40,681 nt of DNA from positions 1-40,681 of the forward strand of contig JAILZL010000028.1 in the NCBI GenBank assembly GCA_023512475.1, given 5' to 3'. This document shows, in pieces, positions 7,654 through 35,201 of this stretch. The position numbers were made by a program, and so were the translations under genes. Source of the stretch: Syntrophobacterales bacterium. GTDB lineage: Bacteria > Desulfobacterota > Desulfobaccia > Desulfobaccales > 0-14-0-80-60-11. The notes beneath the pieces were generated by a model. It made no database searches, was not told the origin of the DNA, and was given only the letters and a program-made list of their open reading frames with translations. The stretch's first letter is position 1, and the number at the start of each line of letters is the position of its first letter.

Positions 7654-8874
7654 TCAGCTCCAGCAGGGGGAGCCCCACAGCACCAAATCCTCCCCCACCT
7701 GGTAGTAGGAGACGCCCTCAAGCCGGGGAAAACGGCGCTCCGCCGCCGGCAGGTAGCCGTCCAGCACCCGCACGCCGCCCACCAGGATGGGGGCCACGGT
7801 CACCACTACCTGATCCACCAGCCGGGAATTCAGGAAGCTGGTGATGACCTGGGCGCCGCCCTCCACCATTAGGGCCGTCACCCCCAGCTCCGCCAGCCGG
7901 TTCAGGAGCGCGGGCAGATGGATGCCGCCATTGGGTCCCACGGGAAGGCGCAGCACCAGGGCGCCCAGATCCTCCAGCTCCTGCTGACGCTCCGGGGACG
8001 CCTGGTCGCTGGTGGCCACCACCGGCTGACGGCGGCCCTCCCGGAGGAGCCGGGCGTAGGCCGGCAGGCGCAGCCGGGTGTCCATGATCACCGGCCGGGG
8101 GTGGGGGCCGGGGACCAGCCGCACCGTCAGGGCGGGATTGTCCGCCAGCACCGTGCCGATCCCCACCAGGATGGCGTTGTGCACCGCCCGGAGGGCGTGG
8201 GTGAAGGTCTGGGAAGCGGGGCCGCTGATGGCCAGGGGATGGCCGGGGCGGGCGGCGATGGAGCCGTCCAGGCTCTGGGCGTAGGTGAGGGTCACCAGGG
8301 GCCGCCCCTGGCGGTGGCGGAAGCGCCGGGCCGTCCCGGGCAGGTCAGCCAGCCGCCCATGCAGGGCGGTGCTCCCCGGAAAAAGGGAGGCCTCCCTCAC
8401 CAACGGGACCCGGCCGGCGACGGCCAGGCCGGGCAGGGGCGGAGGGGCGGGTTCTTCCGGATCCGTCAGCAGCCGGACCGTTTTTACCCCCAGATCCCGG
8501 AGGAGGGCCGCGGCCGCTTCCGCCAGGTGGGGGTCCGGCCGGGACAGGGGGCAGCCCCCGCCCGCTGCCGCCATCCCCGGGTTCTCGGGGAGGTCGAGGT
8601 ACAGGAGCACCCCCGCCCCGGCTTGTGCCAGGGCCGCCAGCGCGGCCTCCAGACGCTCGCCGCAGCCGCAGCTTCCCGCCCGGAGGAGCTCGCCGGCGGC
8701 ACAGCGCCGATGCAGCCTCAGGAGCACCTCCCCCTCCGGGGGGATTTCCCCCCGGATCAGGGCCAGATACCGGTAGTGAAGCCCCCGGTCAGCATAGTGC
8801 ACCACCCGCCACTCCCCCCAGGGGGAGCCAAGGCGCGTTTCGCCGTGCCGCAGTATCTCTGGGCCTTGCCTCAT
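7654..8874 (-). CDS. Fusion: degenerate GTP cyclohydrolase II-like domain + RibD C-terminal reductase domain
   Basis: A 406-residue protein from the ATG at 8874. Residues about 20-190 align with GTP cyclohydrolase II: the zinc ligand spacing C58-x10-C69-x-C71 is kept, as are GVLLYL and LLRDLGVKTVRLLTD. The catalytic RQEGRxIGL segment is replaced by LDLPENPGM, and the substrate-binding YALQ..DT region is missing. Residues about 195-406 are a well-preserved RibD_C (pyrimidine reductase) domain: TYAQSLDGSIAARPG, VGIGTVLADNPALTVR, IMDTRLRLP and ALMVEGGAQVITSF. The reductase is probably active with NADPH on a pyrimidine-type substrate, while the first domain is probably structural or binding. A separate canonical RibD lies at 33963, so this is not the only reductase. 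The frame is open upstream to 9162, but that part is antisense-like. Confidence 0.82.
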   Translation of the reverse strand: MRQGPEILRHGETRLGSPWGEWRVVHYADRGLHYRYLALIRGEIPPEGEVLLRLHRRCAAGELLRAGSCGCGERLEAALAALAQAGAGVLLYLDLPENPGMAAAGGGCPLSRPDPHLAEAAAALLRDLGVKTVRLLTDPEEPAPPPLPGLAVAGRVPLVREASLFPGSTALHGRLADLPGTARRFRHRQGRPLVTLTYAQSLDGSIAARPGHPLAISGPASQTFTHALRAVHNAILVGIGTVLADNPALTVRLVPGPHPRPVIMDTRLRLPAYARLLREGRRQPVVATSDQASPERQQELEDLGALVLRLPVGPNGGIHLPALLNRLAELGVTALMVEGGAQVITSFLNSRLVDQVVVTVAPILVGGVRVLDGYLPAAERRFPRLEGVSYYQVGEDLVLWGSPCWS

Positions 8875-8905: not shown

Positions 8906-9394
8906 TCAGGGGGTGGCCACGAGGCTGTGAAAATTGAGGAGATTGCCGTCAGGATCCCGGAAGTAGAGGGTGCGGTGACCCCAGGGAAAGGTGGTGGGGG
9001 GCAGGACCATGACCAGCCCGGGGATCTTCTGCAGACGGGCGTATTCCTGATCCACGTCCGCCACTTCAAATTCCAGCATGACGCTGGCGTTGGCCCCGCC
9101 CCGCATGGCCCCGGGGGCGATGGCGGCCATGCTTTCCTCTTTGAACAACCCCAGCGCCGCACCCCCCACCTGAAACTCCAGGTAATCGTCGGAAAAGACC
9201 CGGGGCTCGGCCCGGAGCACCAGTCGGTAGAATTCTTTCAGGGCCTCAAAACGGCCGGTGATGATCACCGCATGGCTGAATCTTTTCACACCGCCCTCCC
9301 GGGATACATTCGGGATCTGGGAGGATGCCGGACCGGCCGCGCTCAGGAGCGCCGCCAGAATGAGGATTGCCATGGGGGGCCGGGTGGGGAGCAT
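8906..9394 (-). CDS. VOC-superfamily (glyoxalase/bleomycin-resistance fold) protein, probably exported
   Basis: A 162-residue protein. From about residue 38 it is a single VOC module: FSHAVIITGRFEALKEFYRL, then EFQVGGAALGLF, FEVADVDQEYARLQ and LYFRDPDGNLLNFHS, the typical metal-dioxygenase/glyoxalase beta-alpha-beta3 pattern. The ATG at 9394 has GGAGG exactly 7 nt upstream, and the resulting N-terminus (AILILAALLSAAGPASSQ) looks like a cleavable signal peptide, which is unusual for this fold. The GTG at 9289, behind GGGAGGG, would give a cytoplasmic 127-residue form starting right at the fold, so two starts are possible. Function is unknown. Confidence 0.8.
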   Translation of the reverse strand: MLPTRPPMAILILAALLSAAGPASSQIPNVSREGGVKRFSHAVIITGRFEALKEFYRLVLRAEPRVFSDDYLEFQVGGAALGLFKEESMAAIAPGAMRGGANASVMLEFEVADVDQEYARLQKIPGLVMVLPPTTFPWGHRTLYFRDPDGNLLNFHSLVATP

Positions 9395-33962: not shown

Positions 33963-35201
33963 ATGGCCGATGAGCAGTACATGAGACTGGCCCTTCGGCT
34001 GGCGGCCCGGGGCGCCGGCTGGGTCTCCCCCAACCCCATGGTGGGCGCGGTGGTGGTGCGGGACGGCGAGATCGTCGGCCGGGGCTGGCACCGGCGCTAT
34101 GGCGCCCCCCACGCCGAGGTGGAGGCCCTGGCCCAGGCCGGGGAGCGGGCCCGGGGGGCCACCCTGTATGTCACCCTGGAGCCCTGCCACCATCAGGGCC
34201 TCACTCCGCCCTGCACCCAGGCGGTGTTGGCTGCGGGGGTCTCCCGGGTGGTCATCGCCATGGAGGATCCCAACCCCCACGTCACCGGGGGCGGCGCTCA
34301 GTTTCTGGCCGGCCGGGGGCTGGAGGTCCGGCTGGGGGTGTTGGAGGACACGGCCCGGCGCCTCAACGAAGCCTGGATCAAGTGGGTGACCTCCGGCCTG
34401 CCCTTTGTCATCGCCAAGGCGGCCTGCTCCCTGGACGGGCGCATCGCCACGGTGACCGGAGAATCCAAATGGCTCACCGGGGTCAAGGCCCGGGCGTTGG
34501 GCCACCGGCTGCGCCATGAATGTGATGCGGTCCTGGTGGGGGTGGGCACGGTGCTCGCCGACGACCCCCAGCTCACCGTGCGCCTGGCAGGACCGCGGCG
34601 CCTGGAGACGGTCCCGGGCCAGGGGCGGAAAGGCCCCTCCCCGGCCGCCGGCACCCCGGCCCTGCACCCTGTGATGGGAGAGGGTGTTCCCTCTTCCCGG
34701 GAGGCGGCGCCGGACACCGGCTCCCAACCCATGGGGAGGCGCCACAAGGATCCGCTGCGCATCGTGCTGGACAGCACCCTGCGCCTCCCCACCACCGCCC
34801 GGCTCCTGCATCTGGACAGCCCCGCCCCCACCCTCATCGCCACCACCCCCCAGGCCCCGGCGGAGCGGGTGCTGGAGCTGAGGCAAGTGGGGGCTGAGGT
34901 CCTCATTCTGCCGGAGGACCAGGGGCGGGTGGCTCTCAGGCCCCTTCTGGAGCGCCTGGGGAAACGCAAGATCACCAGTCTGCTGGTGGAAGGGGGGTCC
35001 GAAACTCTGGGTTCCTTTTTCGACGCCCGGCTGGTGGACCGCTTCTATTTCTTCTACGCCCCCAAAATCCTGGGGGGCAAGGAGGGCTATCCCATGATTG
35101 CGGGCCAGGGGGTGCGCCACCTGGCCGAGGCGCATCTGGCCCGGGAACTCACCATCCGCCGCCTGGGCCAAGATATCCTCATTACCGGCCGGCTGCGATA
35201 A
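33963..35201 (+). CDS. ribD: Bifunctional riboflavin deaminase/reductase
   Basis: 412 residues, longer than the usual 360-370. The deaminase domain (1-145) has zinc ligands H50, C75, C84 and proton shuttle E52 (PHAEVEAL; EPCHHQGLTPPC). The reductase domain has AACSLDGRIATVTG, GVGTVLADDPQLTVR, IVLDSTLRLP and LLVEGGSETLGSFFDARLVD. It catalyses steps two and three of riboflavin synthesis. An insert of about 52 residues (about 211-262), rich in Gly/Pro/Arg, splits the reductase domain between LTVR and the IVLDS strand, and accounts for the extra length. The window does not reach ribE/ribBA; on this strand the block stops here. Confidence 0.94.
   Translation: MADEQYMRLALRLAARGAGWVSPNPMVGAVVVRDGEIVGRGWHRRYGAPHAEVEALAQAGERARGATLYVTLEPCHHQGLTPPCTQAVLAAGVSRVVIAMEDPNPHVTGGGAQFLAGRGLEVRLGVLEDTARRLNEAWIKWVTSGLPFVIAKAACSLDGRIATVTGESKWLTGVKARALGHRLRHECDAVLVGVGTVLADDPQLTVRLAGPRRLETVPGQGRKGPSPAAGTPALHPVMGEGVPSSREAAPDTGSQPMGRRHKDPLRIVLDSTLRLPTTARLLHLDSPAPTLIATTPQAPAERVLELRQVGAEVLILPEDQGRVALRPLLERLGKRKITSLLVEGGSETLGSFFDARLVDRFYFFYAPKILGGKEGYPMIAGQGVRHLAEAHLARELTIRRLGQDILITGRLR

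Follow-up and report, generated by a model that had tools for sequence, protein, structure and literature searches.

The window, a 40,681-nucleotide stretch of a Syntrophobacterales genome, raises the question of why a bacterium with a canonical bifunctional RibD should carry a second RibD-type reductase, and what purpose is served by fusing it to a GTP cyclohydrolase II (GCHII)-like domain that appears to lack its active site. The features on which the answer depends are these:

7654..8874, minus strand: whole gene of 406 aa, a GCHII-like domain followed by a RibD_C reductase (open frame; same architecture in genomes G001 and G002)
8398..8874, minus strand: degenerate GCHII-like domain, residues 1-159 (Pfam PF00925, phmmer and alignments)
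8662..8703, minus strand: zinc-ligand triad C58-x10-C69-x-C71 (alignment; kept in all three genomes of the genus)
8578..8601, minus strand: YLDLPENP, in the place of YLRQEGRGIGL of intact enzymes and of their RAY segment, which is deleted (alignments)
8551..8553, minus strand: extra Cys108 (CPLS), in all three genus members and in none of the 26 intact GCHIIs aligned
7657..8304, minus strand: RibD_C reductase domain, residues 191-406 (PF01872, 1.5e-48; phmmer matches to 7lrh, 6p8c, 2b3z, 4ha7 and 2azn)
8284..8286, minus strand: Thr197, in the place of EcRibD Lys152 and ScRIB7 Thr35 (alignment; PMC3631187)
33963..35201, plus strand: canonical bifunctional RibD, for comparison only (TIGR00326, 361.8 bits against a cut-off of 156.35)

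The fusion gene runs on the minus strand from an ATG at 8874 to a stop at 7654, and there is no open plus-strand frame across 7654-8874. A Pfam scan matches both halves far above chance, with GTP_cyclohydro2 (PF00925) on the N-terminal domain at 1.4e-21 (77.3 bits, cut-off 23.3) and PF01872 on the C-terminal domain at 165.7 bits (cut-off 24.1; residues 192-399), so the fusion proposed in the initial annotation is real. The possibility raised there that a sequencing error had joined two genes is excluded, because the fusion is one single frame in all three genomes of the genus (the window genome, G001 and G002). The G001 and G002 proteins show 78-80% identity and have the same Cys triad and the same QEGR, RAY and TK losses. 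No match to the cytidine-deaminase-like domain of RibD (PF00383) was obtained in the fusion protein up to an E-value of 1, and the Pfam scan found no RibB (DHBP synthase) domain in it. Across the whole genome PF00925 and PF01872 have two matches each (E ≤ 0.001); the other GCHII domain is intact and belongs to a RibBA (G000:C10, 265.8 bits), and the TIGR00326 match bears out the normal RibD reported at 33963. This RibD has an apparent Pro/Gly-rich insertion of ~45-50 residues in its reductase domain (residues about 210-260), with the Lys discussed below kept. A gene for a glyoxalase-superfamily (VOC) protein (8906-9394, minus strand) lies immediately upstream, separated by 31 bases from the ATG of the fusion; no such gene was recorded with the relatives' pathway genes.

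The N-terminal domain matches E. coli GCHII (2bz0) at 2.2e-16 by phmmer, and its best PF00925 stretch, residues 12-97, corresponds to profile positions 5-87 of 165, about the first half. We aligned the three genus proteins with 17 GCHII domains of RibBAs and nine fused intact GCHIIs. The zinc-ligand spacing C-x10-C-x-C is kept in all three genus members, as had been noted from the window. The QEGRxIGL segment and the RAY segment that follows it, present in the nine intact fusions and the 17 RibBAs, are absent from all three; DLPENP of the window aligns at (R/H)QEGRGIGL. At the ADERD column the window has PDPHL (His), G002 has SDPPL (Pro) and G001 has PDPRV, in which the retained Arg sits in a lost context. 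The C-terminal YLxTK...H segment, which reads YLLAK in the intact fusion of G010, is likewise missing from the three genus proteins. Tyr105 and Arg128 of E. coli GCHII, which lie within these segments, are catalytic. The full set of GCHII catalytic residues, the finding named at the outset as fatal to the claim of catalytic degeneracy, did not appear in the alignment, and the shared losses argue for that claim; GCHII activity of the window's N-terminal domain is not expected. Among the RibBAs themselves, all 14 aligned from family f1 (L001, L203-L214 and L218) read HQEGRGIGL, His replacing the Arg normally present, and the three aligned from family f2 retain RQEGR.

The two halves of the fusion differ in constraint. 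Among the three genus members the N-terminal domain is 60-70% identical with a dN/dS of 0.39-0.45, and the reductase is 93-94% identical with a dN/dS of 0.10-0.15 (Nei-Gojobori); the reductase is therefore firmly constrained and the N-terminal domain weakly so. With a dN/dS under 1, and with the Cys triad and one new Cys retained, the latter may still have some function. It could, for instance, have been repurposed to bind zinc and perhaps a nucleotide, and to regulate or hold together the reductase, as may be the case for the vestigial GCHII-like domain fused to RibB in RibBX (6mnz). The open frame and triad preserved in all three species, the conserved Cys108 and a dN/dS that is not about 1 would all suit such a role. 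An AlphaFold model of the window protein, of moderate quality (mean pLDDT 71.7, pTM 0.56; a model of an intact fusion was poorer, at 67.2), was used alone for the structure search; over 149 residues its N-terminal part aligns with the GCHII of E. coli (2bz0, Z 18.4), and RibBX is likewise matched by this domain in both phmmer and the structure search. GCHII rows were present in the alignment behind the model, however, so the GCHII fold match is expected and is not independent proof of folding. Repurposing is also hard to square with active-site segments that are deleted or replaced, with conservation far below that of the reductase, and with the nine genomes described below in which a standalone reductase adjoins an MDR dehydrogenase gene, so that the N-terminal domain is not required in general. 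We consider a new regulatory function unlikely, and the domain is probably in the main a remnant or scaffold.

To place the fusion among its relatives, 59 genomes were searched, 29 from the window's order and 30 more distant. A close copy of the reductase is present in 22 of the 29 order-level genomes (best match at least 238 bits), and in the other seven and the 30 distant ones the best match does not exceed 146.4 bits, the level of an ordinary RibD. Nine of these 22 copies are fused to an intact GCHII, three to a decayed one and nine stand alone; one, in G006, is broken by three stops. The intact fusions are confined to genera g7 and g9 (nine genomes, with Pfam run on two; G019 is counted here, its contig beginning inside the GCHII domain before the active-site segments), and the degenerate ones make up g1, the window's genus (three genomes). 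In a reductase tree of 32 rows, with seven canonical RibDs extracted from nine loci tried, the 22 paralogues form one clade (support 100/100) apart from the canonical RibDs and from three RibDs of plasmid clusters. The GCHII-like domain of the genus joins its tree by a long branch, and that of the window has a mean identity of ~32% to fused GCHIIs and to RibBAs alike; diagnostic cells over the three genus members favour the fused type (36 versus 28 of 144), and the split between fused GCHII rows and RibBA has support of 100/94, though another grouping is conceivable (30/0). A single fusion event is likely. Given the intact fusions of sister genera, the degeneracy is most likely derived, the outcome of decay.

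The reductase half had been described as intact, and the whole-domain PF01872 match and the conserved motifs GTVLADNP and MVEGG, aligned with those of 4ha7, are consistent with this; in the structure search, this part of the model matches structures of RibG and RIB7 at Z 19-21. Its local sequence around Thr197, PLVTLTYAQSLD, matches that of ScRIB7, PFVTLTYAQSLD. Selection of AROPP by riboflavin RibDs is attributed to a Lys (EcRibD 152, BsRibG 151), and the T35K substitution shifts ScRIB7 towards AROPP (PMC3631187). At this position our alignment has Lys in BsRibG, Thr in ScRIB7 and Asn in MjRED; Lys also in the window's canonical RibD and the six other canonical RibDs extracted; and Thr or Ser in all 22 paralogues of the order and in four of four further members from the phylum. 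The archaeal reductase equivalog TIGR01508 scores 120.5 bits, below its cut-off of 186.45, so the enzyme may work like ArfC without being classed with the archaeal ArfCs. Its substrate is probably 2,5-diamino-6-ribosylamino-4(3H)-pyrimidinone 5'-phosphate (DAROPP), a proposal drawn from the architecture and from one residue, itself a thin basis. An intact fusion makes biochemical sense on these terms (GTP to DAROPP to ribityl product), since the attached GCHII would deliver DAROPP. A Thr/Ser paralogue beside a canonical RibD, linked to the non-riboflavin genes described next, agrees with the suggestion that the fusion contains a second, specialised pyrimidine reductase.

In all 18 neighbourhoods fetched outside the genus, the reductase is followed by a gene for an MDR (zinc-ADH-like) dehydrogenase, of which G006 has a fragment; the search for the domain pair and its neighbours that the initial annotation had recommended returned, along with the intact fusions of nine genomes, this constant partner. 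Reductase, MDR, a PTPS-family gene and a GT4 glycosyltransferase gene are all matched in 21 of the 29 order-level genomes (the PTPS of G026 and the GT4 of G020 being cut by contig ends), and a methyltransferase is matched in 20 of these 21; none was found in G020, where the GT4 runs off the contig edge. Five of the methyltransferase matches contain a stop, that of G015 being in two pieces and those of G005, G010, G012 and G014 having one TAA each. None of the five genes was found in seven of the 29 order genomes (G007, G011, G017, G023, G024, G025 and G028); G011 is 84% and G017 72% complete, and G024, a single contig that is 99% complete, is without all five genes although three congeners have them. 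In G006, with its broken reductase and MDR fragment, PTPS, GT4 and methyltransferase were not found, and the pathway has apparently been caught during loss at this locus (L026, G006:C171). Of the 19 reductase-bearing genomes outside the genus, 12 have PTPS on the contig of the reductase, 11 have GT4 there and 7 a class I methyltransferase; in several of the remaining ones these three genes form a separate second cluster. PTPS, GT4 and methyltransferase lie together in the window genome as well (C32:54084-56439), with the MDR at C12:49879-50883, and the matches to these four genes are stop-free in all three genus members.

The MDR also occurs (E ≤ 1e-40) in eight of 148 sampled genomes of the phylum, four of which lie outside the order, in further families. 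In each of these four the reductase is just upstream of the MDR and a PTPS at most 0.1 kb downstream; GT4 is matched in all four (one weakly, at 23% identity) and the methyltransferase in one. The linked and co-occurring genes fit the other option offered initially, a different pterin- or flavin-like product, and on this genomic evidence the fusion gene very probably belongs to a non-riboflavin pathway. It counts against this reading that the pathway genes of the window genome are spread over three contigs, with the MDR unlinked to the reductase, and that stops occur in five of the methyltransferase matches; the window genome has nevertheless retained all of the genes.

The competing view is that the reductase is a second riboflavin enzyme, a backup for RibD that follows the archaeal and fungal step order of reduction before deamination. 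DAROPP as substrate would suit both the Thr position and the RIB7-like sequence, and a GCHII joined to a DAROPP reductase would cover that route's two opening steps. RibBA and RibD are both complete and intact, however; MDR, PTPS, GT4 and methyltransferase accompany the reductase instead of other riboflavin genes; and the gene is absent from seven and broken in one of the 29 order genomes. With Thr and not Lys at the specificity position, the complete RibBA and RibD and the patchy paralogue leave the moonlighting riboflavin step first suggested without support, and we regard a backup role as improbable.

Related gene sets occur on plasmids of other organisms. The MDR query matched 33 plasmid records, and we examined 11 loci, six haloarchaeal (L107, L108, L109, L224, L225 and L226; MDR identity 45-53%) and five proteobacterial (L110, L111, L112, L227 and L228; 34-37%). 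By annotation or tblastn, a PTPS lies at most 1 kb downstream in ten of the 11 and a GT4 within 4 kb in nine; a RibD-family gene lies within about 4 kb in four, all proteobacterial. A GTP cyclohydrolase adjoins the MDR in only three loci (a GCHII in L112 and L227, an archaeal GTP cyclohydrolase IIa in L107), and no reductase lies near the MDR in any of the six haloarchaeal loci (up to 7 kb in each direction, but 4 kb in one direction for L226), both of which weigh against the pathway reading; archaea carry such a reductase for riboflavin anyway. The CDP-alcohol phosphatidyltransferase present in L109, L110, L112 and L225 also weighs against it, as no orthologue was found in the order (best match 7.3e-8). 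L109 also has a creatininase-family gene; in rhizobia a creatininase-like formamidase acts on a GTP cyclohydrolase intermediate (PMC9478397). A formamidase-like role for the cluster's gene is only an analogy. Some further candidates were rejected. The adjacent GCHII and RibD_C genes of Streptomyces sp. BHT-5-2 (L056) represent another system, with a deaminase-like part and a Lys (VTLKLAATLDG) in the RibD frame, with WD40, FGE-sulfatase, GT, nucleoside hydrolase and transporter genes as neighbours, and with no MDR or PTPS match at the locus; a connection with SCO6655, a GCHII of S. coelicolor, is conceivable. In Haloterrigena L223 an archaeal reductase is annotated, but the remaining genes of the cluster are absent from its vicinity. 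A long upstream frame in L236 does not resemble a GCHII on visual inspection and yielded no match to one.

All 20 loci of the order's PTPS paralogue encode Glu in place of the catalytic Cys of QueD, and the HGH motif is replaced, by HSH in 19 loci and by HAH in one. The published signatures are CxxxHGH for PTPS-I and ExxHGH for PTPS-III, together with one for PTPS-II (PMC5041015); the paralogue fits none of the PTPS-I to PTPS-III signatures given there, and a PTPS-III assignment was dropped. The haloarchaeal PTPS of L108 carries the same Glu, and in the three proteobacterial PTPSs checked (L110, L111 and L112) HGAT replaces HxH. These residues suggest that the chemistry of the order's PTPS probably differs from that of QueD.

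A pterin-related role of another kind would have the reductase, in the manner of Rv2671, fill the place of an absent dihydrofolate (or dihydropterin) reductase. The DHFR family (PF00186) indeed has no match in any of the 59 genomes (G000-G058), and the modelled fold matches DHFRs as well as the structure of Rv2671 that contains a dihydropteridine ring (4xt4, Z 18.7). Similarity between the RibD_C and DHFR folds is general, however, and DHFR is missing throughout the sample when the paralogue is present in part of it only, with seven order genomes lacking both. FolB (PF02152) likewise has no match in the 29 order genomes (G000-G028), and because DHFR and FolB are missing with or without the paralogue their absence does not single out the fusion gene; we rate this role as very unlikely. 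The folate route of the genomes searched is, as a separate observation, without these two textbook enzymes. That the whole gene is becoming a pseudogene, as the decayed N-terminal domain and the three stops of the G006 orthologue might suggest, is scarcely credible given a reductase half under such firm constraint across the genus and stop-free MDR, PTPS, GT4 and methyltransferase genes in all three of its members.

Taken together, the architecture, active-site losses, intact sister fusions, co-occurrence, linkage, Thr/Ser signature and unequal constraint lead us to favour, with some reserve, a DAROPP reductase that feeds a dedicated GTP-derived pathway and whose private GCHII has decayed in this genus; from them we infer the substrate, the step order, the product and the role of the N-terminal domain. 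The reductase, of NADPH type, would act on DAROPP in the manner of archaeal and fungal RIB7, and not on AROPP. The MDR dehydrogenase, the PTPS-family enzyme, the GT4 glycosyltransferase and the methyltransferase would act in the same pathway, the product of which would be a glycosylated, perhaps methylated pteridine-like compound; its identification as a pteridine- or flavin-like glycoside is a tentative one. In the sister genera a single chain would convert GTP to DAROPP and on to the ribityl product. In the window's genus the GCHII half would have lost catalysis and survived as a scaffold or remnant, possibly one that binds zinc, with the housekeeping RibBA supplying DAROPP.

Comparison with known systems sets the fusion apart from each of them. 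With the DAROPP reductases ArfC and RIB7 (ScRIB7 4ha7, MthRED 6p8c, MjRED 2azn) it shares the RibD_C fold, the lack of a deaminase domain and a residue other than Lys at the discriminating position (Thr/Ser here, Thr in fungi, Asn in archaea), and with ScRIB7 also the VLADNP and MVEGG motifs. Unlike them, it is bacterial, stands beside a full RibD, has a GCHII-type N-terminal domain, falls short of the TIGR01508 cut-off and is linked to MDR, PTPS, GT4 and methyltransferase genes and not to riboflavin genes. The N-terminal domain is homologous to GCHII (RibA; 2bz0, 4i14) and has the same spacing of the Cys triad, but its active-site segments have been lost by deletion or replacement. As in RibBX, a degenerate GCHII domain is kept as the partner of another enzyme; here the partner is a reductase instead of DHBP synthase, the Cys triad survives and sister genera have the fusion in intact form. 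The reductase domain is common to the bifunctional RibD/RibG, from which the fusion protein differs in having no deaminase domain, in its Thr in place of Lys and in its own well-supported clade. The haloarchaeal and proteobacterial plasmid clusters of MDR, PTPS, GT4 and methyltransferase genes, some with a RibD or GTP cyclohydrolase, contain the same kinds of gene; they have no fusion, some add the CDP-alcohol phosphatidyltransferase or creatininase-family gene, and the three proteobacterial PTPSs checked are without the HxH motif of the order's PTPS. The DHFR-like RibD of the Rv2671 type has the same fold, 4xt4 being 18% identical when aligned by structure, with no specific support for a DHFR role.

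The titles and abstract openings listed in searches of open-access papers yielded no description of the fusion or of the gene cluster. What we tentatively propose is an undescribed pathway leading from DAROPP, by way of a RIB7-type reductase, a PTPS and an MDR dehydrogenase, to a glycosylated, methylated pteridine- or flavin-like metabolite. It would span part of the phylum, with a related form in haloarchaea and proteobacteria, and the GCHII fusion would be a private supply in some genera, dead in the window's genus while the pathway persists. The fusion is genuine and conserved, and represents the derived form of an enzyme type already known. Its domains are known, and the intact GCHII-reductase fusion set against its decayed counterpart in a sister genus provides a clean case of the loss of one catalytic half, in an enzyme whose pathway has seemingly been retained. 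The main interest lies in that wider pathway: its linked genes suggest a metabolite derived from GTP, and provide a set of five candidate enzymes with DAROPP as the predicted substrate. Labels such as riboflavin RibD or RibA for genes of this kind, or queuosine enzyme for the PTPS, may be incorrect.
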